Positions 10,601-64,000 of a stretch of 64,000 nucleotides of DNA are shown one piece after another. This DNA is from Polytrichum commune. Lineage: Eukaryota; Streptophyta; Polytrichopsida; Polytrichales; Polytrichaceae. The position numbers and the translations under genes are program-made. The stretch covers positions 29,375,501 through 29,439,500 of the forward strand of contig OX485805.1 in assembly GCA_950295325.1 (NCBI GenBank). The letters run 5' to 3'. The notes under the pieces were generated by a model, which had not been told where the DNA came from, did no database searches, and saw nothing but the letters and a program-made list of their open reading frames with translations. Positions within the stretch are counted from its first letter, which is position 1; each line of letters starts with the position of its first letter.

Positions 10601-13600
10601 AATCCTCGTAACCAAAAGACAACTTGCTGTTTTTGGATGGTCCCTCAGGAATGTTTTGGGATAGGTCTTGAGCTGAAAATATATGCTTCAGCAACAGCTG
10701 TGCCAGATCAGAGGTGCCAAATTGAGCAAGCTCCAGCACCTCCGTCAACAAAGCTTGTTGTTGTCGCTTCAAAACTGTTTTCAGATATTGAATAACCACC
10801 ATAAAACCTTCATTATTCCATCCTCAAATTCAACAAGATTTCCACAAAATAGTAACAAGTACACTAATTCAAGATGTAAATCTAACTTTGAGAACTACAC
10901 CAGGTATGCTAGAGAAAAAAACTGTCCTTGCAGATGCTCTATCTCATTTTCTCGCCCACCAGAAATCAAAATCACTTCTACAGAAAGAAAACCTAACCTG
11001 GAAATTCTGATATTTCTGATCCATATCACTTGCAATCAGTTTTAAATTTAGTTTATGCCAATTTTTTGCGCAAAGTTCCTTTACTCGAAATCCAGCATGC
11101 AAATTAAAATATAGAGATAACAATAAACTTCAAAGAGCAAGTCATGCATCAGATGTCGTTACTTCTTGGCAATTTGATGTTCATCAAGTACAAATACATC
11201 AATCTCTTGAAATCTCACCTTTGCGAGAGCGCTCTAGTGCTAAAATCTTCTCTTTACAATCTTGCTCCTTTCCTTTCTGGCTGGCCAAAAGCTGCTGTAT
11301 GGAAAATATGTTCAAGATCACTCCTGCATGCTCAACCAGCTTGCTTTTGAGGATCGTCCGGGTTTCAAGCAATACCTGCTCCTGTTCATCCCAATAATTT
11401 GCTTGGAGCCATTCAAGAGCCTGAAACACACATGACATAAAATACATGCTTAAGAACAGAGAGAACAGCATGTTCTTAAATTCTCTTTGGAGACATTGGT
11501 GGATATGATTGCAAAACTCTCTTCAAATAATCAGTTCTATGTCCAAATTATGATTTTTGCTTATTGTGTGCATATGTATTATCATTACATAAATTGTCTG
11601 ATGAATGCAACTGCCTCCATCAAAGTATTCCTACAAGGCTTGCTAGCAATTGAAACACCTGAAAGATATTCCATTCCTTGAAAAAGCGTTCATGTAAGAC
11701 ATCCTAATTGTAAGTCGTGCATAGTGCTTGTGAGATAATTGCTTTTCCTTGGTCCTCTACTTGTCATAGGTGGTAAATTACTTTTTTTCTTACAGGAAAG
11801 CCATGTAGTGTAATAAACACTGAGCACAAATTGTTTGTTATTATGATTAAATTGCAACATATGTCCAAGATTCCCTGTAATTGTGTTTAGTTAACCACAG
11901 GGTAATCGACTGGAGCATTTATTATCACATGAGATATTCAACCACAAAAGAAAGACCCAAAACTTTTTGACATGATGGTATGAAGTGTCGAACCTGTTTG
12001 CTTGCATGACGTAATAAAGGTAGGGATGGGAGCTCATTATGAGATGTTTCTGTCGTCAGCCAAAAGGATATGTCAGAATGAACTACTGCACTGGATTGGA
12101 TTGAAGATCCAATTTCTGTAAAATTGTAGTAAAAAATGTTCACCTCCTCATATCTACATCAGTGCACTTTTTATTCCTCCTAGTGATATTTGTTTGATGC
12201 TTGTACTTGGTTGCATAAGAAAATACTGCCATCTTTAAGAAAGTGTAAGGAATCATGATGAGACTGCAAAAAATCAACACGATGAACTGCTAGTAATTGG
12301 ATTGACATAATTTTCTCCTTGTTACTCTCCTAGGGCCCTTGTTACCAAGGACTTTAGAAAAGTAACAATTTGCTAGCAATGTAATTGGCTTCATTAGTCC
12401 CTTTCTCCTGTAAGGAATCTTACATATTTCACAAACATGAATGAACAAACATTCCATCCTGTTACTGCGAAGAGAAAGGGCACATGCAATTTGAGGCGTC
12501 TCGAATTAAACGCACCATGTCGAATATCAACAAATGACCGAGGAAAACTGACAGCCTCAGCACGATTTGCAACAGAGGATCTGTTCCGCGTTGTTGCCTG
12601 ATCCACCACTCCATTCACTAACCTGCAATAATTCACGGATGCCTGATTACAAAACTACTATGTAAAACATTTCAGTAAAAATCCGCCATCTACTGCTTCT
12701 ACAAACCAATACCACTCAAAAGTCCACCCTAACAGAATGCAAAACTCTTCCACCTTGCAAGAGGCTGTGAACATGGAGGCTTGCCTCATAATAGCTGTCG
12801 CATACAGCATTTGAAGCAACTCATTGGATAAAGCTGCATCCTGTGAGATTCCTGCACTGAGTACGTGAATTATGAGGAAAATTAGATCAAATTTTCTAAT
12901 TTTGATCTATAATTTCAATAATGACAGCATGAAGGAAGAGTAGGAACTCCACGTACGTTATGCATGGGTCTTGTAGGTGGATTTTTATGAGCCCAGCAGT
13001 GATTTCAACAGCAACTGGCAGACCTCCTCTGCTTTTCCATGCAGACACCTACAACCCAGCCCCAAAAAAATCAGGAGGAGAGCCCCGGAGAATTTGCACA
13101 GTCTCAAAGTGCAAACACAAACCCTAATTCCAGAAACAGCTTGGCTAAAAAGACCATAGAGAGCATCACAAACTTCTAAAATTCACAGATCACTAAAATC
13201 ACATTGATTCAATCACATCAAACTACAACATTGTAATAATGCCTACCAAACAGGTTATCTTCTGGTTCTATAGTTTATCGTATCATAAGATGACCTCAGC
13301 AGTTGAATTATGAGTTCAATCAATGTTGAACTCAGAATTCAACAATCGCTAAATATTGAGTTAGCACTGAAAAGGTGTATAACTTCAAAAAGATGCCAAA
13401 CCCTGAAGGGTATGTATCATGTATTATCAACACTGAATAAACAATTTAACACTGTCCACTTGCATTTTGAGATGAGGGGAGCAATTTCATAAATTGAGGA
13501 GGCTACTGAGAAGACTTCCACGTCTAATTCAATCCTGGTTCCAACAAAGCAACTAAACTCAGCCAAAATTGCAAAGTTATCCAGTTACTGTTTTCATGAT

Positions 13601-14097
13601 CAGTTTATCGTATCGAAACATGACCTAAGGAGTTGAAATTATGAGTTCAATCAATGTTCAACGAAACATTAGCTGAATGTTGTGTTAGCGCTGATAAGAT
13701 GCTAAACATCATGTTCAACATCTGAAGGGTTTGTATCATCAACACTGAATCAACATTAAAATCTGATCACTTGCATTTCGAGATCAGGGAAACAAATTGT
13801 CTTGAACAAATAAACCAAATGAGGAGACTACTGAAGTAACTTCCGCATCCAATTCAATCCTGGTTCATTCAAAGCAACAAAACTCAGAAAAAACTTGCAA
13901 TGCAAATTATCCAGTTACTGCATTGATGATCAATGATCATCGCTTTGCTGTTCAGATAGATACTTTTAATCCTAAACCCTAAACCATTAAACCCTTACTC
14001 GATTCAGAGCTTCCGTAACCTCTGTGGTCGACGTTGAGAGAAAACAGCAGCGCACATAGTGCCACTGCTGCCAGCTCTCCCATGGCACCTTCCGCAT
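7675..14097 (-). CDS. LAS1: LAS1, pre-rRNA (ITS2) processing HEPN nuclease
   Basis: Las1 is the HEPN endoribonuclease that cuts ITS2 during 60S ribosomal subunit maturation in the nucleolus, working with the Grc3/NOL9 kinase (family knowledge). Exons, in gene order: 14097-13999, 13048-12957, 12856-12785, 12622-12516, 12049-11994, 11420-11219, 10774-10021, 9232-8977, 8319-7675. All phases close, giving about 760 residues. The N-terminus MRKVPWESWQQWHYV matches the VPW..W.EW signature; VSAWKSRGGLPVAVE and AIMRLVNGVVDQ follow. The HEPN catalytic motif R-x4-H appears as RHETSH (residues 122-127), split by intron 4. The C-terminal plant Las1 motif WKPCAIGLLPSEF is in the last exon, followed by an acidic, low-complexity tail. 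Intron 3 is GC-AG. The last about 25 residues lie in a segment that is duplicated downstream, so the native C-terminus may have been altered. Confidence 0.94.
8498..8567. repeat. Foldback hairpin in LAS1 intron 8
   Basis: An inverted repeat whose arms begin TTTATTGAGGG and contain CTCATTTT and its complement can form a stem of about 30 bp. The flanking right side (about 8560-8690) resembles 24180-24330 near the KNOX gene, so this is part of a dispersed repeat family. Confidence 0.55.
9493..9941. mobile_element. MITE-like element in LAS1 intron 7
   Basis: An imperfect terminal inverted repeat of about 23 bases bounds about 450 bp: AGGTGCAATTACACACAACC on the left, against AGGTGTGTTTACACACAGCC read from the right end. 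Internally there are two near-copies of a CTTTCTTTGGYTCTRTTCT stretch. There is no coding capacity. It lies wholly inside the intron between exons 10774-10021 and 9232-8977. Confidence 0.55.
13268..13936. repeat. Two-unit tandem repeat in LAS1 intron 1
   Basis: Two diverged units of about 335 bp (about 13268-13601 and 13602-13936) share many blocks in order: AGTTTATCGTATC, ATTATGAGTTCAATCAATGTT, GTATCATCAACACTGAAT-like, CACTTGCATTT, TTCAATCCTGGTTC and TTATCCAGTTACTG. The array fills most of intron 1 (13049-13998), starting right after the first coding exon. Confidence 0.85.
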
Positions 14098-14226
14098 TGG
14101 GAATTGCAGCTAAGAAACTTCACAATTTATCGTTTCATTCTTCAACCAAAACTACGTCGTCGCATCTGTGTGAGTCTAGTAAGAGCTCCGAATGCATTCC
14201 TCAATCTGCCAAGAGCCCAGAGCCTT

Positions 14227-14240
14227 AAACCCTAAACCCT
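14227..14240 (-). promoter_or_regulatory. Telo-box pair upstream of LAS1
   Basis: AAACCCTAAACCCT lies 130 bp upstream of the LAS1 start codon. This plant telo-box is typical of promoters and leaders of ribosome-related genes, which suits a ribosome biogenesis factor. A second cluster lies just inside intron 1 near 13974-13995. Confidence 0.6.
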
Positions 14241-15039
14241 TGCGTGATGAATGATGGAAACCCTTGGATGAGAATGATAAGCCGGGATGGAAATCGTCAC
14301 AGTGTCACAAAACTGGGCCGAACTTTCATTACCGTAGTAGGTACCTCATTAGTTTGGCCGTAAGTTTAATAATCCTCTTGAGACAGGGTGCCACATGTCG
14401 CGCAGTGGTTGGTTGGAACATGTGAAAAAGTTGAATAGGAATGAAACCAAAAGAGTAAATCTTTTGCATTACCTACCATAAACATTGTATAGCCTTGGTT
14501 CTAACTGTTCAGTGGAATCAACCTTTATATCAATAGCCAATCAATTTTAACTATATACACTACATCAAACAAGTTTATTAGTGTGATCTTTTGTACAATA
14601 TGACTTATTATCGTGACACTCCAATATGATGCTCAACTTTTCAAGCATCCGATTGTTATATTCCAAGGTCCCATTAAACAAACAATGGAAACTTAGTAAT
14701 GTTACAGGAGTGTCAACTTATTAAGATAAATTTGATTTCACTTATGGACATGTGGTGACACGTGCAAGTGTATGGATGCGTTTGTTGCTTTTGTGTGAGT
14801 ATATCTTCTAATATTTACTTCATTAGTTGTATTAATTTTGGCACAAGATATAAATTATAAATAAATGTGAATACCTTTTAGATATTTACAAAATATAAAA
14901 TTTTATTGTTAGTCACACTAATGAGCCCACTCGTTATACACCAATGTGAATCTTCTAATGCCATACAATCAAACATTAAAAGATAAGTAAAAGAAATTTG
15001 TATTGTTTTTAGGTTGCCAATGAATTTACATAAGTTAGA

Positions 15040-16960: not shown

Positions 16961-18007
16961 AGATGTTCAAGTAGGATTTAGTTAAGTAGCTTTCACACAT
17001 GCTCATTGTTTTATCTACCAAGCAATGACAATGAATGAGGTCCATAGTCGATGAGGTCCATTTAACTGCTCACTAGGGTCATGTAATGCTGACATGGATG
17101 AGATCTATATATTTTAGGCGAACAAAGTTAAGGTTTATCTGGTGGCGGCTTATGATTGACTACCCTCTCAAGAGCTTTGACAACTATCGTAGCCAAACAT
17201 TGGAATTTTGATGAGTGGTTATATGTTAACCTATAGATCGACTATGTATTACCCTAACTTTACCCCTTTAAATTTTGTAGTAATTTCCATATTCATGAAA
17301 AAAATTGCATTTTACCTTAGAATATGTTTATCTTTGCAAGAAAAATAATTCCATGCTATAAATCCTCCTAAATAGATGCAAACTCTCTTGTCTTATCAAT
17401 TATAGATGCCTCAACTTTATGATCCACCTAATCTTAAATGGGGGTATTTGGGTAAACTGGATGTTTTCAAACAACCATGTGGGGACCTAGGAGCTTGCCC
17501 TGGGGAGATAGGTGCCGACTAGCTTGTTTGTACTATTCAAGGTGTTCACCTTCACAAGGATGTAGTACTCATCATGGCCCCTCTATTTCTCACAATGTTT
17601 GTTTTTGGATTACACATACAAATTCTGACCAACATGAAAATGCAACAATACCATATTTCACACCAATGGCAACATCAAAGTTGTCTTCCTTTTTTTCTTT
17701 TTCTTTTTCTTTTTTTGCAGACACACAAAAATTTCAACCTCACGAATTGGAGTATGTTACAATGATTATCCCAATCAATTACTATTTGGAATTATGCAAT
17801 GCAATAACATCTTACTCAGGAGTTTGTTTTTTACTAGCAAATGTTCAATAGGTTGTTTGGACATCATAGAACATAAATGACTTGGCTTGGTAAAACACTA
17901 CAATCTCATTAAATAGTTATAGCATTGCGTGGCTCTGAATAGTAACAAACACTAATTGGGACAAACAATGTAGAATACGTAAGAAACAATAAAAGTAATC
18001 ATAGAAG
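16961..18007. other. Gene-free spacer
   Basis: I see no supportable gene. The stretch has a pyrimidine-rich patch (about 17690-17718) and AT-rich filler between the LINE remnant and the next inverted-repeat element. Confidence 0.4.
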
Positions 18008-18390
18008 GGTAGAGCCGCACCACCTAGCTAAGAGAACTAGCTAACTTACGAGTTAGTGAAGACTAGCTAACCAAAGTTTTAGCTAACTAAAATCGTGGTT
18101 GCACCACCTACTTAGGAGATTTAGCCAACAATACGAGTTAGTGAAATCAACTAACTCGTACACTAGCCAACCGATCACACGGTTGCACATCGATCCTAAT
18201 TACCACTGACCAAGATTGAACGAGTGAAGTTTTGTTCAACTTGTTGATTGAAGTTTTGAACATGACACTAATTATGAGGCCTTATAAGTTTGTGGTCCAC
18301 ATCATTTATGTTTCATTATGATTAAAATAAAATAAAATAACATCTAAACTTGGACATCAAAATGACAATTTAATACTATTATATAATGAC

Positions 18391-18421
<31 letters not shown>

Positions 18422-18763: not shown

Positions 18764-18922
18764 CTTATACCCGCCCTCAGTCCACTGAGTCCTTATACCC
18801 GGTCACCTGGTCTCGCCTATTCGGTGTCCTTACCTGGTCATCCTATTCGATCTCCCTACCCGGTATCTTTACCCGGTCATCATAATCGGTCTCCATACCC
18901 GGTCTCTCTACCCGGCTACTCA
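18764..18922 (+). repeat. CCCGGT-rich short tandem repeat in SRP14 5' region
   Basis: A degenerate array of about 20-40 base units built on TACCCGGTC and CTATTCGGTCTC lies 90-250 bp upstream of the SRP14 start codon. It is probably in the promoter or 5' leader. Five or more ACCCGG/ACCTGG cores can be counted. Confidence 0.65.
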
Positions 18923-19011: not shown

Positions 19012-21559
19012 ATGGTACGCAATTTACCATCAAACTCTACGAACACATTCTATTCCTCAATGCCTCTGCTGTGTCTATCCGATTCTCTAAATCCCAGCCA
19101 ATGACATGAAATATCCGCAAATCCGTATCACTTGTAATGGTTTTTGCTGATTTTGGGGGATGCAACTTGCAAGCATGCGTCTCCGATTCTAGCTACTTCA
19201 TGTTTACTGCGAATTGAAATAGTGCGGAATTCATGTTGAAAGAGCCCTGGAACCAGGGGCTGAGTGGCTGGCTGTGTTGCAGAGGATTTATTGAAGACTT
19301 AGGGTTTGAGATCAGGAGTTAGTTGTTTTGTTGTTCAATTGTTACGAGTAATGTCGGTATCTTGCGATGGTTTCTTGCTACTTTAGTTTCTCTGTGGCGA
19401 ATTGAAGAATCCGTCATTGATGTTTCGAAGTGGGGAGTCGAAGCAGGGGTTGGGCTTGTGGTCTAAGCAGGGTTTTAGGGTTTGGGAGCCATTAGGGTTA
19501 AAATGCTACGCGGGTGACATGACTTGTAGGATCGAGTGGTCTGGTATTGATTCGTTCCAAGTAATGTGGAATTACTTGCTACTTTGAATTGAAGAATCCG
19601 TCATTCATGTTGACGGGGTTGAGCTTGCTTGCATACAGAGAGAGGTTTCAGGATTTGGGAAGCAGGAGTGGTTTTGGTCCCGATTTGCAATTGTTTTAAA
19701 GATGGATGGCTTGTGTCATTGTTGCAGGTGCTTTTAGATTTAGATCCATTCTTGAATGAGCTAACGAAGCTGTACGAGCAGACGAAGAACTCGGGGACTG
19801 TGTGGGTTACGCTTAAACGCTGTAATTAATTCTACTTTCCCTCTACTTCTACTGGAATTGTGAAGTGATTAGGAGTTGCAACAAGTATGATGATTGGTCA
19901 ATTAGCGTTTGGGAGTCCTTATTCTAGTTGATTAGGATCTAGTTAGTGAGCAAGGACTATGCACTCTAGTTGTTGTGTCCTAATTTGGTATGAGGTTCTT
20001 GTGTTTGTCTTTTCTTAGGGCCACTGTCTTTACACTATGGCTAAGGGCTATGATCATGAAATTGTGCTTTGAGGACCCTGGAAAGTCATTCAAAGGCCGT
20101 ATCATGGAAATTAGAAAGAAATCGGATTGTATGTGGTTACGGGCTTTAAGTGTAGTGTAAAGACAGCGGGCTCTCAACCGAATTTTATTCTTAGTAGCAT
20201 CCTATTCATGTGCGCCTTTCCATGTTTTGAAGTGTGCTGGTCTCCAGGTTTGTGCAAGACCCACCTCTTTGTGGTGGGCTTGACGCAAAAGCTGGTAGAC
20301 CATGAAACGGTATCCAATTCATGCCATGTAGGTTTGTTCATCCATATTAAATTTCCTTGGTTTCTTAGGCCCTCAAGCTCTAGTGTTAAAGTGAAGTGGG
20401 ACAGTTTCGCCCTTTCCACTAATGGGATACTTTTGATTCCAATTGTCACAGACCCTCAAGCTCTAGTGTAAAGTACCCCTTAACCATGGAAGGTGGGACA
20501 AGAAAAAGTTGCAGTAATCACTGCAGGGGCCAAGTTCATGATCTCAACTTTGTTATTGTCTGTAGACGTCAATCTCAGGTGGCCTAATCACAAATTTAAT
20601 GTGGTTGGTAACTGTAGCAACTCTCCAGCGGCAGAAGAAGCGGAAAACTATTGAAGAAGCACCTACAAAAGTGCCAGAGCCATCTGAGTTCCGCTGTTTA
20701 GTCCGAGCTACAGATGGCAAGAAGAAGATCAGCTGCTCAGTAAGCTCTTATCCCTCTTTCTTTCGTATTATAGTAGACTGGTTTCAACCCAACACCATCA
20801 AAATGTGGACACCTATATTTGAGTGGTGTGTGGTTACATGTGGATCTAAGAACAGACACCTAAAAGACATGTGTTAAGAGATTGGACTACGTGCTCAAAT
20901 TATGTTATTTATTCTAGGCTCAATAGTCAACATAATTGAGGGAGGCTTCATGACCTTTCACTGAGCACAAAAAATTTCAATTCATACAAGCTCCAAAAAT
21001 TATGAGGGAAATGGCTATGGCATGATGTGGATTGCTAATCATCTCACACTAATTGGGTATTTATCCTACAAGAAATGGGTGCAAAGTTAAAGGTGTTGAT
21101 GAATACTCGTGTACATAAGATTGGATGAGTACAAGCATGTCCTTGCAAACTTGAAAGTAGAAGTCTTGGGTTTCTGTTGGGGAAAACATGAGTGACGAGG
21201 TATCCATGTTGCTGTATTAGTGTGTATGAAGCAATTTCCAGTTGTGGAAGGTCTTTTTGCATACAAAAGTCTCTCATGATTGTTTGTATCCCTGCAGGTC
21301 AATTCTGCTTGAGTTGTAGAAGTATCTTTTGAGGGCGTATCTCTGCTATGTTTGTATTAGCTGGCGTACTTGTTAGAATTGCTCACTTTGATTCTTATTA
21401 GGATACATGCTTTGGATGCAGCTGACAGCTAAAGATCATCAACGATTTCAAACATCTTATGCAACTGTGCTGAAAGCACATATGGATGCTTTGAAGAAGA
21501 GAGAAAAGAAAGATAAGAAAGACAAAAAGATTGCCCCTGTCAAGGCTCCAGGGTCATAA
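19012..21559 (+). CDS. SRP14: SRP14, signal recognition particle 14 kDa protein
   Basis: SRP14 pairs with SRP9 on the Alu domain of SRP RNA and slows elongation while ribosomes dock at the ER (family knowledge). Exons: 19012-19014 (only the ATG), 19728-19821, 20618-20739, 21422-21559; phases close to 118 residues. The protein reads VLLDLDPFLNELTKLYEQT, SGTVWVTLKR, EFRCLVRATDGKKKISCS, KDHQRFQTSYATVLKAHMDA and a Lys-rich tail, colinear with Arabidopsis SRP14 over its whole length. The start codon standing alone in exon 1, followed by GTACGC, fits the conserved VLL start of exon 2. Intron 1 carries a tandem repeat array and intron 3 a dispersed family A repeat. A candidate poly(A) signal lies 430 bp past the stop. 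Confidence 0.96.
19207..19727 (+). repeat. Three-unit tandem repeat in SRP14 intron 1
   Basis: Three diverged units (about 19207-19398, 19399-19583, 19584-19727) each begin near GAATTGAA and share CCGTCATTSATGTT, a TTAGGGTTTG/TTCAGGATTTGG block and CTTGCTACTTT at the unit end. The array fills the 3' part of intron 1 up to the acceptor. The sense strand is G/T rich. Confidence 0.75.
20800..21100 (+). mobile_element. Family A dispersed repeat in SRP14 intron 3
   Basis: The sequence matches the repeat at 7311-7676 block by block: GTGGATCTAAGAAC, GATTGGACTACGTGCTCAAA, a TTCTAGGCTCAATAGTCAAC block, CATCTCACACTAATTG and a final AAGAAATGGGTGCAAAG. It has no coding capacity. It sits between the third and fourth SRP14 exons. 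Confidence 0.7.
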
Positions 21560-23240: not shown

Positions 23241-26200
23241 TTATGGTTCAAAGAAGTGGCCGGAGTGATCACCATAGTCGTCGCTGCTGTAAAACTTGGT
23301 GTTGGGATGCATGCATTTCCCCTCACAGCTCCAGTGGCGCTTGCGCTCATTAATGAACCAATTGTTGATCTGTTTCATGTTTAATTCACATGTTTTCTGC
23401 AGGTACGTCTTCTCCGATTCCTGCACATATTTTAAAATGTAGTAAGGTAGATGGATCTTATATGGTTACTCTCTCTGTCTAGCCCACTTCTCCTAAGATA
23501 TGTAATGCTTAGCAAATTTAAAATCAAGGCTGTAGCCACTTTCCTCATAATTTTTTGGAGCTCATATGAACATCTTATTCATTATGAAAGTGTCAAGATT
23601 CTTGTGCTCATCAAGTGGTCAGAATGAGATTGAACTGTGGGCTCCACATATATACACCATTCTAGGTTCAGTAGTGAACAAAGTTTGGGGAAGGCCTATG
23701 TGATCACTTAAATAGAAACTTAAAGAGGGAGAGAATCATGACTTAGAGCTCTTATAGCTTTTGGATCCCACCTCCAATTCTGAAACTCTAAATCACAATC
23801 TGCGTGTTTCGCAATTGCTAATGCGATAAGATAATTTCCAATGGGATCCAACTGTCCAATTGGATCCAACCGTATGTGGAGTTGGAAGTGTCCACAATAG
23901 GCCACGTACCTAATCTAAGTGTGATACTAAATATTGACTAGGGAGACAAATCGGACTTAACTGCATCCATTTTCCTTGTAAATTTGGGACCTCATATGAA
24001 CACCTCACTTTACTATCAAATTGAAGATTCTCTTTCTTCTTAAACCATCATAAACCTAGGTCCACCCCCTTTTGGGTGTCTGTTCTTAGATCCACACTCA
24101 AACATAGGTGCCCGATTAGGATAATTAACTGGGAAATAATGGAATTAGGCCCGTGAATTACCTCTCTAAAACAATAGAGTTATCCTAATGAACCAATACG
24201 GAATGTCTTCCGCTCAAACCTCCATATCGACTCCAAGCATGCACCGAACATTGACCGAACATGGAAAGCACTGTACGCAAACAGCGAACTCCTGACCAAA
24301 ACTCGGTTGAAACAAAGCTTAACTCTAGTAACTGCTGTCAAGTTCGTTGCAGCAAAGTCCAAGAATTAGTAGCACCCAATAAATTAGAGCACATTTGGAG
24401 AATTATTAACCGGGATGAAAGTGAATCGTGCGGCACTTACCGAAGGGTAAGGCCAATGCGCATGGTGGTTAAACCAGTTCTTGAGGATGTGGCGGGCGTT
24501 GGAAGGCAGCTTCCCTTTCTTGCGCACCCGGAGGAACTCCGCCTTGAGGTTGCCGATGTGCCGGCCGTATTTCTTCTGAAGCAGCTTCTTGATCTCAGCA
24601 TCGGACGCGGTGGCGTCGATGACAATGCTTTCGTCGACGTCCAGCGGGTACATGATATTCGCGATATCCAACGACTCCAGCTCCTCCCCACACTCTTGCG
24701 GGCTGCTCGCCTCCATGGGCCCGATTGCAAACCTAAATCCATAGTTGTCCTCCTCATCGGGCCGAGCTGCACCAAACAAAAAAAAAACGAAACAAAAGTG
24801 AGTTTACATCACTAGGGTCCACGACCAAAGCAACTCCGAAACCGAGCGATCCATTTCAAGGTCGAGAGCATGATTCTTGGACTGTTTGAGGGAGTTTACA
24901 TCAGGGTCAGGTCCAACATAACATTATTCAGATACATGACAATGTTCTGTAGGACTGAGAATATTCCACTGAATATATCTAAATATTCTTCACATTCAGC
25001 CTGAATGTGAGGAATATTTAGAAATATTTAGTGGAATATTTTTAGTCTTGAATGTGAGAAATATTCAAGATTATTTTGTGGAATACTGTCAGTCCCACAA
25101 AACACTGTTATAGATATGAATAATGTTATGTCTAAGATTTGCAAAAAACAAAATAAAAGTGAAGCAGTGTTGATTTGGCATCACTTTCCCGTTACATTTT
25201 GTCGGTTTCAACTAAAGACAATACTACTCCTTAGTTGACGACCCGATCTTAAAGATGGAGTCCAAAAGTAAGCTTTGAGGTCCATTGAAGGGTGTTTTGG
25301 ACCCCAAGCTGCAATGCAAACCCACTCAAGGGTCCAAGACCAAAAAACTTCAAAATCGTACGATCCTATTATGGTCGAGAGCATAATTATGGACAAAAGG
25401 AGTTTACACTAGGGTCAGGTCCAAGATATGAAAAAAAATTGAAGTGACACTAAATTTGGCATCACTTTCCCGTTAAATTTCGTCGGTCCCAACTCAAGAA
25501 AAATACTCCTCCTAGTTTGACAACCCGTTCTCAAAGCTTTAGATCCATTGAGGGGTGTTGGGGACCCCGAGTCTCCTGGACCCGAGCCTTAATGTAAACC
25601 CACCCAAGGGTCCAAGACCAAAGAAACTTTGAAAATCAAACAACCCAATTGGTTAGGAGCAAGATGTTAAATCCAAGGAGTTCACACGAGGGTCCGAGTC
25701 CAAAGTATACAAAACTGAAGTGCTATTAATGTGGGCACTACTCTTAATATATCCTCATCTAACTTACAACGATCTTGAAAATAGAGTAGATGGTTCTGTA
25801 ATCAGTGACAAAATTACAGCAGTCAACACTGCTTGCAGTCTGAGGTTCTCATTATGCTTGATGAATTACGTATTGCTCTATACAGAGACCATACGATAGA
25901 TTTAATTCTTATCGAAACATTCCAACTAGGTTGCTGCCAGTAAATTCAGCAGGCTTCTTCCATACAAAGTAAACTGATTCTTTCTCCTATTTCTCTACAT
26001 TGACAGTCTTTGCATGAGGATTTGTGTACAATTCAAACGAAACAAACTTATTATCATTTAGCTGTGGTAACCAAGGTGATGACATACATACAAGAGCATC
26101 CTTTCCCATTAAATAACTTTCCTGCAGAAATAAATTATGGAACCTAAATGCAATCTTGTGGCACAGAAGAAGCATATAAAAGAAAAGAATGCATTTTAGT

Positions 26201-45200: not shown

Positions 45201-47762
45201 ATTGCCGATTGAGATTGGACACATCGATGGTGTCCATATCAATGACATCTATATGCCCAAAACCTGATAGTGCCAAGTCTTTAAGAAGTTCACATCCCAG
45301 GCCCCCCGCTCCAATGACCAGAACTCGAAATTCATTCTGTAGCGACTCAAGCAGCTGCAAAAAACCAAGCCCAACTTCTGCTTCAGTACACTTATTGAAA
45401 AAGAGTGTTAAAATTCATATCATGGAAGTCAATGAAGTAACTTCTATGTCATATTGAACATTGGCCCCAACGCTTCTCTCAACAGAAACCGTACTAGCTA
45501 CTCCTATGTGGAGAAATCATGTCTATCCAAGTATAAATGATGAATGTCTCATGCTGTAGCAATTATAAGTCATTCTAAATCAATGACCTTCAATCTCGAG
45601 ATTGGCAAACTTGAAACTAAGCTCAAAGGAGCTTGAAATTATTTATAATTCATGCACAAGGATCACATAGATAACCCAAATTGATCGGTACAGTAGGAGG
45701 GCATCTGCAATATATTGCATTAGTGCATAGAGGATAGCACAGAATAGTACAATCCGACAAACCCTAAAAAGATCTTACACAAAATAATCAGCTGATGCAA
45801 TTGCTGTAAAGAGTATCATCTCTCAAGATCAAGAATCTTGACTAAAGCTGAATGGCAATCACAAATATGGTGTCAAATGACTAATAGAGTACTTCTACAA
45901 TAAGGTACTTACACCACTGAACCATAAAGAATCACGAGTCAGATAGCTCCTTTTGCAAGCAATCTATACTGGGAAAGAAACTAAATTGTGTCAAAGGAGC
46001 AGTTCAGCAACTCTTGAGTAGGAATTCCTCAATACACCACAATTGATCCATCGAGCTATCGAATTAGACGCCACAATTCAGCACTCTCCTATTTGAGTTT
46101 AGCCCTAAATTTAGAAGAATATTGATAGCTCTGATGTCCTATGATCAGGACACATGTGCATCATGGAAGCCCTAACTACTCTCAAGTCTTGATTGAGAGT
46201 TCCCGAACCCATGACCTCACAATTCACAAGAAAAACTGATATCATCTGATCTCAAAACCAAAATTGCTCATAGGTAGCATGCAGAAATTGGCCATCAAGT
46301 GGATTCCTACAATAAACAAGAACCCTAAACCCTAAAATGGCTATGTCAGGAACCAGGCAGATTCACCAATCCCCAAGACATGAATCCCGGAGGAACCCCG
46401 AAACAACCTGATCTCTTAATCATAACTCCTCATCAGAAGTGTGCAGAAAAGGAGTCAAAAGTTGAAATTGGGTGTGAACCAGAACCCTGAACCTATCAAC
46501 ATAGACACCACAATTCACCACTGTCCTCCTAAATTTATGGCTAAATTAAAAAGAATTGGCAGCCCAAATGTCCAATTCATCAGGACACCTGTACACCAGA
46601 AAATGCCCAGGAAACCCTAACCTCACCCTAAATATTCTCAATTCTCAAATGAAACCCACAACTCCACAACCACACACAATCCACATGAAAAATCGACATC
46701 ACCTGCTCTCAAAACCATAATTCCTCACAGGCAGTATACAGAAATTAGCCATCCGTTAGATTCCTGCACAGAACAAGAACCCTAAACCCTGAAATGGCTA
46801 TGTCAAGGCCAGGCAGAATCTCCAACCCCCAAGACATCATTCAAGAGGAACACCAACACGAACTGATCTCTTGACCACAACTGCTCGTAAGAAACCAAGG
46901 TGCAGAAACCAAGGTCAGAAGCTGAAATTGCACAAGAACCATAACCCTGATATACCCATGTCAGGGCCAGCCACAATTTCCCAACTCCCAAGACATCAAT
47001 CCACAAGCAACCCCGACACGACCTAATCTCTAAACCACCAATACTCATAAGAAGAGTTCAAAAAAGGGAGTCAGAAGCAAAAATTGAACATGAGCCAGAC
47101 CCCTAAAATGGTTATGTCAGGGCCACGCAGAATTCCAACCCCCAAGACATCAATCCATGAGGAACCCCGACAGGACCTGGCCTCTTAACCACAACTGCTC
47201 ATCAGAAGTGTGCAGGAAAGGGGGTCAGAAGCTGGAATCCGATGAGAACCATTACCCTAAAATGGCTACGTCGGGACCAGGCGGAATATCCAGCCCCCAA
47301 GACATCGATCCACGAGGAACCGCGACGCGACCTGATCTCTAAAGCATAATTGCAAGTAAGAAGGAGGCCAGAAGCTGAAATTGAACAAGAACCATAATCC
47401 TGAAATGGCTTTGTCAGGGACAAACAGAAATTCCCAACTCCCAAGACATCAATCCACGAGGGACCCGGACACATCCTATTCTTTAAACCACCAAATACTC
47501 ATAAGAAGCGTGCAGAAAAGGGATCAGAAGCTGAAATTGAAAGAGAACCAGAACCCAAAACCCTAGAATGGATGGAACGGGATGGAATCGATACCTCAGG
47601 GCCCGGTTCGAAGCCAGGGCCGACGAGATTGCCCGGCCGTAACAGAAGGCGGTCCAGGTCCACCCAGCGGCCCGATGAGTCGGCCATAGCGAGCGCGGCG
47701 AGGCCCGCCAGAGCTTCCTGTTCGCCTTGCGCTGCTCTGTGTGCTGCGGCAGCAACGCCCAT
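42290..47762 (-). CDS. ECR1: ECR1/UBA3, catalytic subunit of NEDD8-activating E1
   Basis: ECR1 adenylates the ubiquitin-like RUB/NEDD8 and carries it as a thioester, working with AXR1 upstream of RCE1 and cullin neddylation (family knowledge). Exons: 47762-47595, 45354-45191, 44908-44706, 44417-44185, 43951-43889, 43683-43627, 43533-43412, 43091-42974, 42565-42290; phases close to 467 residues against 454 in Arabidopsis. Seen in order: [20 protein letters not shown], the nucleotide-binding [19 protein letters not shown] (from residue 67), [17 protein letters not shown], zinc-ligand Cys pair in PCFHC (216, 219), active-site Cys233 in [36 protein letters not shown], the second zinc pair in PNCIMC (357, 360), and the C-terminal ubiquitin-fold part with [11 protein letters not shown]. 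All catalytic and zinc residues are kept. The large first intron carries a tandem array. Confidence 0.97.
46070..47575 (-). repeat. Tandem array with higher-order structure in ECR1 intron 1
   Basis: About nine diverged units of roughly 155 bp end 20 bp from the first-exon donor. Recurring blocks: CCAAGACATCAATCCA, GACCTGATCTCTTAA, CTCATAAGAAG/CTCATCAGAAGTGTG, GTCAGAAGCTGAAATTG, CCTGAAATGGCTATGTCAGG and AACCCTAAACCCT. Anchors sit at about 46420, 46865, 47021, 47180, 47333 and 47470. The left half also shows a larger duplication of about 460 bp (46070-46390 against 46500-46830). It lies wholly in intron 1 (45355-47594). Confidence 0.88.
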
Positions 47763-55357: not shown

Positions 55358-58300
55358 ATGAGTGCCCTGCGCATTAGGGTTCGGTGCTTTGCAAAGGAAG
55401 CGAAAGGCCAGGAGCTTCCCTTTCACGTCGAACGTAACTTATTACTCAAAACTTCTTTGAACCATCAGTTCCGGCTTCAGCTCCTCGACCTGGCGGTCTC
55501 GTTGGATTGTGCGCTTAGGGCGCACGGTGGAGATTGCTGATTTATGCCGGCGAGGTAGTCGAAACCTTAAACTCTTGGTTTGAAGTCAATTCAGCGGCGA
55601 GTTGACGAAGAAACAGAGGATTAAATCAAACCCTCGGCTGTGTCTGGGGTTACGATAATCTCTCGCACGGGGGGAAGGAGTGCTCGAACGAGATGTAGTT
55701 TGGATGGCTACTGCATTGTGGCATGCAGCAGTAGGTTCTGGTGTATAGGTAGTCAGTGGATTCACGAGTTTCGTCATGATTTTTGATGCTAAATTGGGAA
55801 TGTCGGGAAACTTCTGGCGCTCCGTGTGCATAGCGGAGCTTTCTCAATCGTGCGAGTGAGGCATTTGGCAGCTTGGTGTGCGGTTTAGTTGGTAAATCGG
55901 CGGTGGATTGAAGGAACAGAGGATTTAACTAAACTCTTGGCCATGTCTGGGCTTACGGAAAGCTCGCCTGGAGGAAAGGAATGCTCGAAGGAGACGTGTT
56001 TTTGATGGAAACTAGTATCGTGGCATATTACGCATGCAGCGTCAGGTTGTGGTGTATAGGTAGTCAGTGGCTGGTGAGTTTTGTCGTGAATTTTAATGCT
56101 AAATTAGTCATGGCGGGCAATTTGTGGCGATCCGAGTGCATAGCTGAGGTTTCTTAATCGTGCGAGTGAGCCATTTCGCAGCTCGGTAAATATGTGGTGA
56201 GTTGAAGAGACAGAGGATTAAACTAAACCCTCGGCCATGTCTGGGGTTTTGGAAAGCCTGTTTGGAGGGAGGAGTGCACGAAATAGGTGTGTTTTGGTGG
56301 TAACTAGTGTTATGACATAACGAGTTTTGTGCGAAATTTGATGTTAAATTAGTCATGTTGGGAAATATGTGGCGGTCCGGGTGCATAGCGGAGCTTTCTA
56401 AATCCTGTGAATGAGCCATTTCGCAGCTTAGTGCAGTCTACGTGTGTGGAGGTGGGTGAAGAAAGGGAAATATGGGAGTCTCGGGTTGCCTGGGGTTTCT
56501 AAAAGCTCTGGGACAGGTGTACTAGGAGGAAGCTTGTTTCTAATGGCAGCTAGTATCACTTGGCATGCTTGTGGCATGGAGTTGTAGTAATGTCGCAAGC
56601 GAGTCCCGTAGCTATGCACGCATCCAATGCCAAATTAGGCAGGTCGGATATTTCTGTGCAATCCAGGTGCATGACGGAGCTTTCTAATTCATGTAGGTTA
56701 GCCATTTGGCGTCCTGGTGCGGTCTAGCTTCGTGGCGGGTGAAAGGGAGGGAGATTTGGATGGTGTCAGTGACCCCAGCTTGTTGATTCATGGGGGTAAG
56801 CCCTTGGGAAGTTATGGAGCCTTGGGCTTATCTTCAATCGTAAACCATCACGGGGTATTATTGGAAAGTTGCGTGTCCTTGAGGGCAGCTGCAATGGCAT
56901 GCTACGCTTGTGGCATTAGGTCCTAGTACTGACCATGGACGAGTTTCGTTGCAGCTTGGCAAACATGTGATGCTTAGTCAGGGTGGTGATGTATTTTATG
57001 GCTGCAGATTCCGTAAGAATCCGCCCTTGCAACACGTTGCACAGTCACAATGCAGGGTGGAGAGCTCGCAATTCGCGTGAAGAGGTTAGTGCTATTACAT
57101 GTGTCCTTGATTTGGGGCATATTGAAGTTAGCAGTTGTGGTGTAGATTTTTCTTTTGTGCAAATTCACTTTTATGCAGTAGAAGCTTGACGAATGTAAAT
57201 CGTAGTTGGCTATATAAGATTCTGTACCTAAAAAGATGCATCTACGAGGTTCTTGATTTTCTTTAAGTTTACATACGGCAGTTTTGAGCTGATCTATCAT
57301 GCACCTGCAGCAGATCCTCTTTTCAAGAAACAAAAAACCCTGCGGAAAATTTGGCACTTAGGAATAGTAGTCCAGAGGTTTCAGCACAACTTATGGCGAA
57401 AGAACATCCCAGCTTCAACAAGCTACTCAAGCATCCTCTTGCCCTTGTGAGCTTTGTGCCAAGGGAGCTGTCATTGTTCTTTGCTGGGGCCATTGCAGGT
57501 GCAGCAGCGAAGACTGTCACAGCACCCTTGGACAGAGTCAAGCTTCTCATGCAGGTCTGCACATGGGCTTATTTTTAAATTCCTCTCCACATAGATGTAC
57601 ACACTCACACCTTGTTGGGGGACAGTTCTGCCAGCTGATAGTTAAAGAACAAGGAACAGCTGCAGAGGTATTTAAGGCTACATTAATGCTTTCTATCCAC
57701 TATGGGATTCGAGTTTTTCCTGTTATTATGATTGGTAAACTGTACTTTAAAAGATCTCAAGTGATTTGTATGATTTCTGCCTTTTGCTTTTGTTGGAAAG
57801 ACAAGTATGTGTTCTAGCTGTTTGGTTTGCATGCATGCCCAAGGGAAGTGCGGGTTTGATAAATGGGACACCTTGAAGCTCTTTTGAAAGAGGGTATTAT
57901 ACAGTCAACTGGTCATTCTTGTTCACTATCATTGGAACCACAATGTGATGTAAGAGGATAGTAAATTCTTTGAAGAGTGCCCATGAAGGACATAAGTCTA
58001 AAGAGTGGTTATGTGTCAACCACCAGTTGAAGGCAGATGGCTGAGCAGATTCTATGGTCTTTTCTGCAATATCTAAATGCCGCACCAATTTTGCAGGTTC
58101 ATGGTGTACGCATGGCACAGGAAGGCAGCAAACGAGGCATTGGACTTCTTGAGGTATATAATTTAGACATTAAGTGCCTCTAAAAAGACTAAGTAAGGAC
58201 AATCCTTTGGCAAAGCCAAATTCAGAATCAGTTTCTTGTATCTCAAATTTGAATAGAAGCAAATCATTTTGTCATGGAACGACAATCTTGGAGGACTGCC

Positions 58301-61020
58301 TTAAATATCACGACTCATTGAGGGGTGTCTGATAGTACCAGTAACAGAGCTTGCTATGATTGTGCAACCAACTAACCAACCGACAAACATTCTGACTTTT
58401 AGAGATACTCAGTGTGGATTCATAGTATCTCTTTGTGTTCTTGTCTACAGGCAGTAAGCAAGATTGGGCAGGAGGAAGGTGTCAAAGGTTTTTGGAGAGG
58501 GAATGTTCCTCAGGTATGTATGAATACACATCAATAATTAAAAAGGTAAATCAATTTACAAGAATGTTGGGGACCGAGTTGTACTAATTATTCGTTGTCA
58601 GTTCCTACTGTCGGGATTGTCTTGCTAGCATAATATATAGCACAGATGGAATAATAGGTTGGTAACTTAGTTCTAAAGAGATACTATCAACCTATCTATG
58701 AGGGGTTCCTGTAAAATGACTTCGATGACCTCTATCACCCTTTTGTACTAACATTTTCAAGTTGGTTATTTGATAGGTTATGTGGCTCAGTTTTCCAGCT
58801 GCTTCTAGAAACGTAATTCATGGTTTGTAGTTGACTTGTGGTGAGAAGGTATTTTACCAGGCGTAGTGATTATCATGTGGGGAGTGTTGACGACATGTCA
58901 TACTTGCAAAAAATGTGGAATACTACTCACAAGGATGTTCATTTCTTTGTGGCACATTGGAAGGTTGTCCGCGTCATACCCTACAGTGCAGTGCAGCTCT
59001 TCTCATATGAAGCATATAAGGTAAGTTTTGAAAACTTTTGGTGATGATTTATAGCCATGTTTCTATAAGAATTAAATATGTAACGTTTCTGTCTAGGTTC
59101 ACAAAGTGGTAATCTCACATTGAATTCTTTGCTGCATTGCATCAAAGTTGTCTCTGTCCTAGAGGGTGATGATTTATCATTGTTATGGATGAAATTTAGA
59201 TTGAAAATCTTTTTGCTGCAGAAATTGTTTAAAGGAGACGATGAGGAACTATCAGTCGTTGGTAGGCTTGCTGCAGGTGCATGTGCTGGCATGACTTCTA
59301 CACTGGTAAGTCTTGCATGTCTTTTCACATGGACACGAGCCACCATAACTGAAATCTCCTACATTGGTCCAATATTACTCAGAGGAAGCACTAAAGTGTG
59401 TTGATTAACCTTCTACTCTGGAAGTTGTTTATAAACATTGAGAAGTTATGGGGCTGACACCACTGCTGCCAGATTCCTGCATATTTGTTCTGGATTGACA
59501 ACATCCATATGTGCTGTATTGAGAAGAGTGCTTGATATTGTTCCAGAGACCAACTGCTTGATTCTTTCTCTTTCCAGGTGACATACCCACTAGATGTATT
59601 GCGATTGAGGCTGGCTGTGGACCCAGCTAGTCAGTCTATGGGCCAGGTAAATATATAAGGTTCGTCATTCTATGTATATATTTCTGTAAGTTTACTATGT
59701 ACAAACATTTCCAGGTCAAATAATGTGCCTTAAAAGTGACAATTGGCTTGTTTTGTGTACAAAGTTTTTTTACAGTGCTAAATCTTGCATTTTCAGGTAG
59801 CAAAATTGATGCTACGAGATGAAGGTTTGAAGTCCTTTTATAAAGGCTTGGGCCCATCACTGTTGGGCATTGCACCATACATCGCTCTCAATTTCTGTGT
59901 GTTTGACTTGTAAGCACATTACCATACAGATTTTGAGTGATTTGTGTAAAAGGTAGTATAAAATACTTCGCAAACATATGACCAGGGATGATTCTTTTGT
60001 CTACTGTAATTTACATCTACCGATCATCAAAATTGCAGACTTTTAATGTAGATCTGATTCATGTCATGGGCATACAGAATGAAGAAAACCCTTCCCGAGG
60101 ATATGAGGAAAAGGCCAGAAGCATCACTTGTGACAGCATTAGTATCAGCATCCTTTGCAACAGCTATGTGCTACCCACTTGACACTGCCCGAAGGCAAAT
60201 GCAAATGAAGGGCTCACCTTTCAACTCTTTTCTTGAGGCTGTTCCAGGTGTGTTCACATTTGTGGACTAATTTCAAGTAATTTTTGGTGGCAAGACCATA
60301 GGTTGTCAGAGGTGTTAAAGCGTTTTTTTAAAATAAATAAATTAATGTTTAATTTTTAAAATTAAATTTTATATACATCTAGATACACATTCTGGAGGGC
60401 GGCTTACACTAGTCTAATTTCAATAATGAACAATCTGAGGATAGCTTGCAGCCTTGTGCTAGTTTCCAGTTTTTTTATAAACCAGAGGACTGTTTGTTGC
60501 AGGTATCATTGCCCGAGATGGATTTTTTGGGCTATATCGTGGCTTTGTTCCAAATGTCCTCAAAAACCTTCCAAACAGCAGGTATGACATGCTCCTCCAC
60601 TTTGCAAGAGGAATTGTTCTCAGGACCTTGTGGTCTCTTTTGTCTGTAGTGTAGTTTGCTCAATGTGCAAGAATTAATTGGTTCTAAAAGAAGAAACACT
60701 ATCAAGAACTAGGAGTTTCTTGAGCACAATAGTGGAGTGATTTTATGGGAATTGCTCTAGGCTTGCTTATTTCAATTAGACATTGGCTGTTTCAAACATA
60801 ACACTATGTAATAGCTGTTGCGGGCACAGTGTTGTGTGCTTGTCCTGGCCTTTCTTCCACTTGAGCTGGGATGTCATCAGTGTTAACATACACAGTTCCA
60901 TGTGTAAATTGCAGCATTCGTTTGACAACATTTGATGCTGCCAAGAACCTAATCAGCGCAAGCCAGGCTGAATACCTGAGGATTGTTGAGGAGCATCAAA
61001 AGTCACTGAAGAGTTCTTAG
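55358..61020 (+). CDS. PAPST1: Plastid adenylate/PAPS carrier of the mitochondrial carrier family (TAAC/PAPST1 type)
   Basis: The plant homologues TAAC/PAPST1 and PAPST2 exchange ATP/ADP or PAPS across plastid membranes (family knowledge). Well-supported exons: 57311-57554, 58097-58153, 58451-58513, 58964-59020, 59222-59305, 59578-59646, 59797-59909, 60078-60247, 60503-60581, 60915-61020, giving 346 residues in phase. The three carrier repeats show PLDRVKLLMQ, PLDVLRLRLAV and PLDTARRQMQMKG, each followed by a matching G-rich half (GFWRGNVPQ, SFYKGLGPSLLGIAPYIALN, GLYRGFVPNVLKNLPNSS). HGVRMAQEG is typical of TAAC over other carriers. The 5' end is unresolved: the first ATG after the TATA box opens a basic frame (MSALRIRVRCFAKEAK) that looks like a plastid transit peptide, but no donor was found whose phase joins it directly to 57311, so another small exon (perhaps near 57000-57090) is likely. 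Confidence 0.9.
55575..56970 (+). repeat. Five-unit tandem repeat in the carrier gene leader intron
   Basis: Units at about 55575-55860, 55861-56169, 56170-56410, 56411-56700 and 56701-56970 share GCCATTTGGCAGC/GCCATTTCGCAGC, AGAGGATTAAACTAAACCCT, GGCCATGTCTGGGGTT, GTGTATAGGTAGTCAGTGG, AATGCTAAATTAGTCATG, GGTGCATAGCGGAGCTTTCT and CGTGCGAGTGA blocks, decaying towards the 3' side. The sense strand is G/T rich. The array lies between the first exon and the exon at 57311. Confidence 0.9.
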
Positions 61021-62559
61021 TTGTGTAGCTGGGTGTTCCGACCATTTGAGTAGCTAAAGATCTGGTTCCAATCACAGAACCCAATTCAAAATCTATCACC
61101 TAGCCTCATATGTGTTGATGAGATTGTCATCAGGTCTGCAGATAGGTTTAGTCGTAGAGACAATTTAGAGGGAATATACCAGGTAATTACTCGAAAGACA
61201 TTTTTTCCTCACAGAGCGATGAATTTACTCTGCATAATTTGCAAGTAGGATAAATAGTTGTAGAATCAAAGGTCCATTGACCACCTATTTGTGGACTGAG
61301 ACGAAGAGCAAGTTGGATACTGGCCATAGCCAGCATGTCATTCAGACATTCTTTTAATGAATTGTATCTTATAGTTGCTGCCATATATGGATGTTTAGTG
61401 TAGTGATGTGTTTCACTGATTGAGGAAGGTTCTTCTGGAATTCTTCTTTGACAGCTTCTAAACGCATAATTTACGAGTTATGATTTTTTGAGATCAACAC
61501 CCTTGCAACAAAAACACTTGGGACCAAAGAATCAGTAGTAGAAAGTAAGTAGTTGAGTTTGACTCACTTCTCCATATAATTTAGATTGGGTGGTTGCAAA
61601 GTTAGGAGCTGTTGCCAAATGTTTACTTGGCTTTCTACATTTCCCGAAGCATCATACCTCTGCAATTCATACTGAACGTATTATTTATGTGAGCCATGCT
61701 TATCCTTCACGCAATTTAGGTGGAAAGCTAACTTAGTCCATGTGCCTTTCCATTGTGTACATGATGCTTTGTGTGAGTCCCAATTAAGTACAATTATAAA
61801 GTTTTACTTGGTCTATACAACAACGTATATTCAATGCAACTACACTGCATGTGCAGTTTGCAGGTGACCTTTAAAAGTTGATTTTATACTGGAATTAGCT
61901 TCAACGATCCTAAATTAGTCTAGTCGAAGTCATTTGAGTTGAATAAACCACAAATTTATAGAGGGTCAAGTCTTTATGTTGTATAGATGGGAGGGCTCAC
62001 TCGTATGCGACAATTTCCTCTCCAACCCAAAATGGGCTTGGTGATCTTTAAGGGCTCAAGCTTAAACAATCGGTTTAAGAATATGATATAAACAAGGACC
62101 AACAAACCTAAATCAATCATCATAAATAGGGTAACTCTTTCTAGGGAGCCCTATAGTGTGGCCCACATCACACATTACAAAAATAGGGTACACTTGTCAT
62201 GTCCTGTGATTAATGTCATGCGCATAATCCCAATTTTCCATAGTACAAACTTTGGATGAGTTTTCAAGGGCCTTTATAATTTCATGATCACCGCCCTGAC
62301 CTGTAGTGTAAAATGGACCCAAGCTCAATGTGACCATGTGTCTATAGAATTTCGTTTCCCAAGACCTACCATGGAGGATGCGGTAAGACTTGGCCCATAT
62401 AGGTTTGTTGATAGATCATCCTAATTTAACCTTAATAGAATATTGCGAGGTCTTCGATCCCAAACTAGGTGTCAATTTAGCTAAGAGTAACAACCATGGG
62501 CTCCACATAGCAATCAACAATTGTCACTCTCCCCTCGATAAGGTTCCGATAAGTTAGAC
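61021..62559. other. Carrier gene 3' flank and spacer
   Basis: The region holds the 3' untranslated region of the carrier gene (limits unknown) and then AT-rich filler. No gene or clear inverted-repeat element is seen. Confidence 0.4.
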
Positions 62560-62940
62560 ATGCCTAATTTGGTTACTTATCCTAATCAAACACCTAATGT
62601 GAGTGGTATGTGATTTGATGTGGCTCCAATAACAAATAACAAAAAGACTTTTGTTTAGAAAAGACTGGACTACGCTCTCAAGATGTGATAACCATTCTAG
62701 ACTCACTACACAACATAATTGGAGGGACCCATATGACCACTTAATGAGCACGAGAATCTTCACTTTGAGAATGAATGAGATATTTATATGAGTTCCTAGA
62801 ATGATGACTTAAGAAAGCAATTACGGCCTCAGTATGGATTTGCTAACCATCTCATACCAACTGCATGTTTTATATTCTAAGAGAAGTGGGTTAATTGGAA
62901 AAAAGAACCATTTAAGACCCATCTACATTACTTGGTGCTC
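62560..62940. mobile_element. Family A dispersed repeat
   Basis: A full-looking copy: TTGGTTACTTATCCTAATCA at the left, GACTGGACTACGCTCTCAAG, ATTCTAGACTCACTACACAA, GGATTTGCTAACCATCTCAT and CCATTTAAGACCCATCTACA at the right. It matches 49780-50230 over its length. There is no coding capacity. Confidence 0.7.
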
Positions 62941-63225
62941 CAAAACATGGGTTCCCAAGTCCTAAGACCTAAGTCCCAAGTCACTTGAGGCCCATCTGTG
63001 CAATCTGAACCGTTGAGAGCATGAAGGTTGGGACTTATCACCCCACACGGGTCCCAAGTCCTAAGTCCAAGTATGACATGGATGCCTACGTGGCAACACT
63101 TTTTGGAGGTGAAGCTTGAGACTTGTGTTGAGACTTGGCCTCCATGTTGGAACTTCCTAACATGAGTGGAACTTGGAACTTGGGACCGCCCCACAGTATG
63201 TGGTTACCATAATTAGTGTAGTTCG
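62941..63225. repeat. Dispersed repeat of CAAGTCC/TTGGGAC type
   Basis: Repeated GTCCCAAGTCCTAAG-type blocks occur at both ends in inverted sense, and the region matches the complement of 53405-53560. It is likely a non-autonomous element. No reading frame with family resemblance is present. Confidence 0.5.
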
Positions 63226-63610
63226 CCCATACGGACGGAATGCGAACGAAGAGCCAATGAGCGAACGAAGTGGACGCGAGAAATGGACGAGAGTTGGTCG
63301 CGAAGCATGCAAGGGGAAGACAGGAAGGAAGGCCCATGCGATGGTCGCTCTCCCCGCGTGACCGCGTGCTTGCCAATTCCTCACGTTTCACCCACCCCGA
63401 TCATGCTAATTCAACTCAACTTACTCGCATTCACATCGCAACAATCCGCATCCCACCCCCCGCCAACGCCCCTTTCTCAAATCCACCTGGAAACTTCCGC
63501 AATTTCCGTGCAATTTGCATGCAGTCAGAGTCAAATGCAAGCAAGATTCCACCAAAACAGCTCGGCTGTCGGCGATCGGCGCTTGCCACGGAATCCTTCC
63601 ACCTTTAACA
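63226..63610 (+). promoter_or_regulatory. Probable leader of a further plus-strand gene
   Basis: GC content rises and the plus strand becomes C/A rich at 63330-63600, as in leaders of the neighbouring genes; a repeat array then follows, as it does after the first exons of those genes. No start codon with a convincing protein can be chosen. This is an inference from layout. Confidence 0.3.
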
Positions 63611-63669
63611 AGGATTGATGTGAGAGTAGCCGGGGAATTCACGGACGAGGGGTTGGTTGTGCTTTGCAT

Positions 63670-64000
63670 TTGTGGGGTTTGGCATTTGAAAAGGTTTGAG
63701 CGAAGAAGGGTTTGGAGGTTCGGAGAGTTGGGTTTGGGAGTGGTTGGGCCTTGACGTTGTGGGTTTTGGCATTTTCAGAATTTTTGACTGAAAAGTTTGG
63801 GGTTGGAAGTTTTCGGGGAGGTCGGTTTTGGGTTTTGTGGGAATTTGTGGGCCAGGGGGTGGTGGGAGTTGACGTTGTGGGTTTTGGCATTTAGGAAGTT
63901 TTGATCGAAGGGGTTGGAGGTTTCGGAGCGGTGGGTTTTGGCGGTGTGGGAATTTGTGGACCACGGGGTTGTGGGTTTTGGCATTTGAGAAGTTTTGAGT
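63670..64000 (+). repeat. G/T-rich tandem repeat at the right edge
   Basis: Units recur at 87-118 bp: the GGGTTTTGGCATTT core stands at about 63674, 63761, 63879 and 63973, followed by AGAAGTTTTGA-type and then GGTTGGAGGTTTCGG and GGGAATTTGTGG blocks. The array runs off the window, and its full length cannot be seen. Confidence 0.85.

Follow-up and report, generated by a model that had tools for sequence, protein, structure and literature searches.

Long-unit tandem arrays in and around genes of Polytrichum commune: one-locus units, arbitrary unit ends and mostly old copies near genes

Several genes in a 64,000-bp stretch of the Polytrichum commune genome (C3:29375501-29439500, hereafter the window) hold degenerate tandem arrays of long units in their introns or just beside an exon. 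An earlier note on this DNA had claimed that every intron-containing gene there carries its own private array inside an intron, mostly a first or leader intron, and that the gene-free blocks have none. This raises the question of whether such arrays form a class proper to first introns, and of how they arose. We find that the feature is real, that its origin is mostly ordinary and of a known kind, and that the generalisation was too wide. Four of the window arrays have a unit that was found at one locus, three duplications have arbitrary unit ends, and the copies near genes are mostly old. On balance, we think that most arrays are the remains of repeated local tandem duplication, probably during the repair of breaks or nicks, that have been retained beside exons.

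The source assembly comprises 407.8 Mb in 64 contigs, seven of which, among the contigs read, span 42-78 Mb. An array was called where blastn gave a forward self-match with E<=1e-3, an offset of 60-600 bp and a length of at least half the offset. The 60-600 rule was set before regions were fetched, and the subset with offsets >=100 bp and the cut at a Jukes-Cantor (JC) distance of 0.15 were picked after the first results. Locally shuffled DNA gave no calls at all (10 shuffled windows and 120 shuffled regions), and self-alignment was strong for the arrays of LAS1, KNOX, ECR1, the carrier gene and the right edge of the window (Table 1). The existence of the arrays is thereby confirmed, as are the two units described for LAS1, even though Tandem Repeats Finder alone recovered just ECR1 and a portion of the right edge among the long-unit arrays of the window. 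The periodicity in SRP14 also held up, as a weak signal made up of one 26-bp match (offset 187) and further matches below threshold; in a banded self-alignment at offsets of 150-220 it scored 47 against a shuffle maximum of 27, exceeding 200 of 200 shuffles. The sample, planned in advance as 7-kb stretches around matches to the first exons of LSM and Ras genes, consists of 27 of the 28 planned gene regions and 12 random 7-kb pieces (84 kb); a 5-kb piece directly right of the window (L040) was also analysed. Excluded were RAS_p, which overlaps LSM_i, the second copies of duplicated genes at C1:62455114, C1:4153538 and C2:32176141, the LSM match at C4:20243611, and Ras matches that lack a first exon. 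Among the regions kept, the genes of LSM_b and LSM_g are perhaps not intact and L011 contains 200 N. Splice sites and exons of the sample genes were read by hand from the DNA sequence alone.

The expectation that each array would be private fitted four of the six cases. Searched genome-wide, the ECR1, carrier and SRP14 arrays matched only their own locus, and the right-edge array matched its own locus and one decayed neighbour copy; at the sensitivity of the search, the unit of these four is local sequence of one locus. The search passes over very common words and scores the best candidates only, and a missing match is not proof of absence; it recovered 69-90% relatives of LAS1 and is therefore able to see diverged copies. 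The KNOX array gave at least 48 matches including itself (the best 40 of 2863 candidates were scored), an inner stretch of it matches in both orientations, and its unit is a dispersed element of ~277 bp from a large family, which sets KNOX apart as the exception to local duplication. For LAS1 there were at least 43 matches including itself (the best 40 of 60 candidates were scored), and the 14 loci fetched (L041-L054) share a ~300-bp element with ends near CATCTCAAAA and GTTTGTGATG. Its core, window positions 13619-13784, has at least 42 matches outside LAS1; a second core match was present in 7 of the 14 fetched stretches and a called tandem array in 6. The 330-bp LAS1 unit consists of ~135 bp of local flank, for which the other loci show no alignment, and the first ~195 bp of this element, and unit 1 has only these ~195 bp of it; hence the duplication must be later than the insertion of the element. 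No cross-match was found when the six window arrays were compared with each other. This absence and the four one-locus arrays rule out a single transposon family behind all arrays, the origin that the earlier note had named as fatal to its proposal, yet two of the five arrays that it named contain dispersed repeats.

The edge of the LAS1 repeat is one of three examined cases in which a duplication crosses a boundary. The C2-domain gene right of the window has in its intron 1 a separate array (L040:330-938), and in this array region the final 36 nt of exon 1 are duplicated together with the splice donor; the copies lie at L040:257-330 and 598-671, and the donor has changed (GTCAGT against GTCATG). 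The array of the SmE-like gene (LSM_a) contains a copy of the coding end, ~49 nt with the stop codon included. Between the two copies of this coding end, 4 of 49 sites differ, which is roughly half as much divergence as in the array overall and fits constraint on one copy and freedom of the other. Since these three duplications run across a repeat edge, an exon end with its splice donor and a stop codon, the unit in each is an arbitrary local segment. Together with the four one-locus arrays, these cases support the local process that had been proposed.

Table 1. Tandem arrays of the window and their introns (window positions; offsets in bp)
Feature	Position	Strand	Description
LAS1 intron 1 array	13272-13932	-	two 330-bp units, offset 330, 73% identity (self-alignment)
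LAS1 intron 1	13998-13049	-	hand-read splice sites
SRP14 intron 1, weak periodicity of ~185 bp	19180-19725	+	intron 19015-19727, hand-read splice sites
KNOX intron array	24814-25722	-	offset 281, 70% identity, part copy at 515 (self-alignment); intron number unproven
ECR1 intron 1 array	46056-47562	-	intron 47594-45355, hand-read; offsets 159, 314, 437 and more, 72-80% identity
Carrier array in apparent leader intron	55607-56759	+	offset ~300, 70-80% identity, about four copies (self-alignment)
Right-edge array	63633-64000	+	offsets 119 and 206, 72-74% identity; extends ~41 bp past the window

The placement of the arrays in first introns and near an exon stands for LAS1, SRP14 and ECR1, by hand-read splice sites. 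From the 5' splice site to the start of the array there are 66 nt in LAS1, 32 nt in ECR1 and ~52 nt in the carrier gene, whose leader intron is unproven; the KNOX array, assigned before to intron 6, stops 48 nt before the next exon, the ELK-bearing one. The array takes ~70% of the first intron in LAS1, ~73% in SRP14 and ~67% in ECR1, and about two thirds of the apparent leader intron of the carrier gene. The sixth case suspected at the right edge is a real array that ends just 5' of the ATG of the C2-domain gene (Pfam C2), and its place in an intron is putative. ECR1 has ~155-bp units with a longer period of ~440 bp on top; instead of the nine or so units counted before, six carry the anchor motif, the sixth beyond a 456-bp gap. 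The host genes were identified by domains: PF02290 for SRP14, PF04031 for LAS1 (one exon above cut-off), E2_bind and ThiF for ECR1, Mito_carr for the carrier, and ELK, below cut-off, for KNOX. The first coding exon of SRP14 ends right after the ATG (ATG|GT, window 19012-19014), an arrangement also seen in an LSm4-like gene (L010, about -1698) and perhaps in an LSm2-like gene (L005), and directly upstream of SRP14 a 39-bp unit is repeated 2.4 times (18822-18915).

Age was measured as the ungapped JC distance of the best pair of each array. Near genes, 20 arrays entered the comparison (5 of the window, SRP14 being excluded, 14 of the sample and 1 of L040), with distances of 0.145-0.318, and the 8 arrays of the random pieces ranged from 0.058 to 0.327. 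Only the right-edge array (0.145) fell below 0.15 near genes, as against 5 of the 8 random arrays (1/20 vs 5/8, Fisher p=0.003; gene sample alone, 0/14 vs 5/8, p=0.002). Among the five young random arrays, three occur on pieces that carry retroelement domains (two in L033 and one in L035), that of L034 belongs to a many-copy family, and that of L028 is unclassified. The three old ones are that of L037, in a piece with a weak, sub-cut-off kinase match; that of L039, beside frames that are SMC-like by eye only, Pfam and Protein Data Bank (PDB) searches of single frames giving no match; and the second array of L035, unclassified. There is thus moderate support for a scarcity of young arrays near genes.

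As to where arrays lie, those with offsets >=100 bp numbered 14 in the gene regions, 8 in the random pieces, 5 in the window and 1 in the 5-kb right piece (at offsets >=60 bp the counts are 18 for gene regions and 11 for random pieces, the latter spread over 9 of the 12). The 14 fall into first or leader introns (LSM_h, SmD3-like; LSM_j, LSm4-like; RAS_b; RAS_d), a second intron (LSM_c), upstream sequence (LSM_d, RAS_c, RAS_e and a second LSM_h array, this last placed by distance only) and 3' ends (LSM_a, which has one coding exon, and RAS_a, Rab18-like); two of LSM_i and one of RAS_h were placed in no class. In LSM_j, the first exon ends at the ATG and the array begins 18 nt further. A long-unit array was present within -2000..+1500 in 10 of the 27 genes and, as far as readable, in a first or leader intron in 4, while the first introns of RAS_c, RAS_e, RAS_g, RAS_h, RAS_l and LSM_c (bounded by exon matches) and the first coding intron of RAS_d are array-free. 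Possession of an array by every intron-containing gene is therefore refuted. Arrays occupy 1.8% of the DNA at -3500..-2000, 7.9% at -2000..0, 7.9% at 0..+1500 and 2.2% at +1500..+3500, and 5.7% in random pieces. The tests of density and position reveal modest effects, with p values uncorrected for several tests: at offsets >=100 bp the 27 regions have 11 arrays inside -2000..+1500 vs 3 outside (one-sided p=0.029; 10 vs 3, p=0.046, minus a dispersed-family array), and old arrays taken alone (<80% BLAST identity) number 11 near genes vs 3 in random DNA (p=0.046). The claim that gene-free DNA lacks arrays fails on the 8 of the random pieces, several or more of which lie in retroelement-bearing pieces. 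In the gene-free DNA of the window (~28.9 kb, judged by eye) no array with offset >=100 bp was called where 2.75 are expected at random-piece density; since P(0)=0.06, this absence is not significant. These results show that the arrays are not a class specific to first introns, as they lie also outside introns and in random DNA.

How, then, did they arise? An origin of the arrays from dispersed elements, inserted in tandem or repeated internally, accommodates the KNOX unit and part of the LAS1 unit, which as members of dispersed families resemble tandem short dispersed elements (possibly MITE-like or SINE-like), and those LAS1 relatives that have a second core match or a called array. It also accommodates the upstream array of LSM_d, with 24 matches in 11 sources (privacy of sample arrays was judged within the sample, LSM_j excepted), and that of random piece L034, with at least 76 matches including itself (the best 40 of 1078 candidates were scored). 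The other four window arrays are unlike such elements in that they have no match outside their own locus, and at the sensitivity of the search an origin of this kind is not supported for them; the random array of L037 is likewise unique genome-wide, the LSM_j array is so apart from one decayed neighbour unit, and the duplicated unit of LAS1 includes flank that is not element. We regard a transposon origin as unlikely. Selection for intron-mediated enhancement, by which repeated motif copies would be kept in first introns, might explain why a number of housekeeping genes whose first introns are long are among the hosts and why the ECR1 units carry repeated AGGGTT-type words. These units are 66-82% identical and show no homogenisation; their mismatches clump slightly (1.52 vs 0.92, p=0.043, subject to ascertainment bias), and no clear conserved block was seen over the six units beyond the motif used for finding them, which is itself the most conserved one. 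With arrays also outside introns, this explanation, already raised in the earlier note, is without support and seems to us very improbable.

If the arrays arose through a process tied to transcription at the 5' ends of genes, be it R-loops where the sense strand is G-rich or meiotic breaks close to start sites, first and leader introns would be favoured. GC-skewed 5' regions are R-loop-prone, and in sequence composition some arrays near gene 5' ends resemble them, being G-rich on the sense strand. The GC skew is 0.70 at the right edge, 0.37 in SRP14, 0.34 in the carrier gene and 0.23 in ECR1, the four one-locus arrays, in which GGG runs outnumber CCC runs by 21:0, 12:2, 19:3 and 32:9, respectively; in intron 1 of RAS_b, it is 0.42 in the array and 0.06 in the remainder. 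The clustering of arrays at -2000..+1500 points the same way. Skew is nevertheless near zero in LAS1 (0.04), KNOX (-0.01) and two first-intron arrays (C2 gene, -0.04; LSm4-like, -0.03), and is present in two of seven array-free introns measured (the first introns of RAS_e, 0.25, and RAS_g, 0.26). When private first-intron, leader and 5' arrays were compared with other near-gene arrays, p was 0.043 without the C2 intron-1 array, 0.12 with it, 0.21 when grouped by position and 0.53 in the gene sample alone; strand skew as a common mark of the arrays was discarded, since its significance is gone once the C2 array is counted. Arrays also lie upstream and at 3' ends (SmE-like, Rab18-like), they are as dense in random DNA as near genes, and a tie to introns or 5' ends, as had been proposed, is not established; the scarcity of young arrays near genes speaks against a process active now. 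With no robust signal behind it, we consider a 5'-linked process improbable.

In the local duplication that we prefer, a stretch of 100-500 bp beside an exon would be copied head to tail, sometimes more than once, most likely during the repair of broken or doubly nicked DNA, and the copies would then decay through point mutation and small insertions and deletions. They would persist beside exons, while the arrays of gene-poor DNA tend to occupy younger transposon sequence; we propose that copies last beside exons because the DNA there is rarely replaced by transposons. According to a comparison of recent insertions in rice, tandem duplications are their commonest source, are enriched at 50-200 bp and are ascribed to patch repair (PMC7971508), and work on break repair is in line with tandem duplication of the repair type (PMC8355091, PMC7407515). 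The arrays described here resemble the rice duplications as local, non-transposon, head-to-tail copies in non-coding DNA, and differ from them in being longer in offset (103-481 bp), in some cases multi-copy, and old. Patch-repair tandem duplications in plant genomes are reportedly a subject of Vaughn and Bennetzen in 2014 and of Schiml in 2016, and tandem duplication of the repair type is said to be one of Messer and Arndt in 2007. Minisatellites, too, are tandem units, and the arrays are like them in lying in non-coding DNA; the units here are longer, and those of ECR1 are far from uniform. A literature search, outside which most subscription papers lay, found no paper on long-unit arrays in plant first introns.

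Several observations weigh against local duplication with retention. If duplication were steady, young arrays would be expected near genes; as almost none occur there, an additional assumption is needed, either that identical copies collapse or that duplication came in a past burst. The offsets are long for such events, since in rice the share of tandem duplications has dropped to ~5% by 200 bp (PMC7971508). The age contrast hangs on the cut (p=0.0006 at 0.14 and 0.0095 at 0.18, with 0.09 at 0.20 and 0.07 at 0.12), and a rank-sum test of the JC distances gave p=0.098. Two of the three old random arrays have no domain match above cut-off that would place them near genes, and the density near genes is not above that of random DNA (11 per 94.5 kb vs 8 per 84 kb, p=0.42).

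Elsewhere in the window, an uninterrupted frame of 1311 aa on the - strand (3-3935), coiled-coil-like by eye, leaves the window at its left edge, and two 93-bp direct repeats, 84% identical (7190-7282 and 7674-7762), stand around a stretch that matches another repeat of the window. A search of the window against Rfam gave no match at gathering level, and no transfer RNA was reported under bacterial settings. A structured RNA, such as a small nucleolar RNA, in the LAS1 array was rejected, the best match of a lax Rfam search, made over the LAS1 intron only, having E=0.12, far under the gathering score.

First introns tend to be the longest. Array-bearing first or leader introns were found outside the named window set in the LSm4-like and SmD3-like genes, two Rab genes and the C2 gene, and it is conceivable, if doubtful, that long first introns here owe most of their length to local tandem duplication of 5' sequence, with transposon insertion playing a smaller part. 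If so, young copies beside exons would be removed or collapse fast and only diverged ones would last, and the scarce young class could be looked for in populations. Where arrays show up in a single window and only in its introns, they may mark the survival of old DNA and not the site of duplication. Were it general, the building of introns by duplication would give a concrete cause for long first introns, and if old duplications make up much of these, intron growth would be a record of local break repair.

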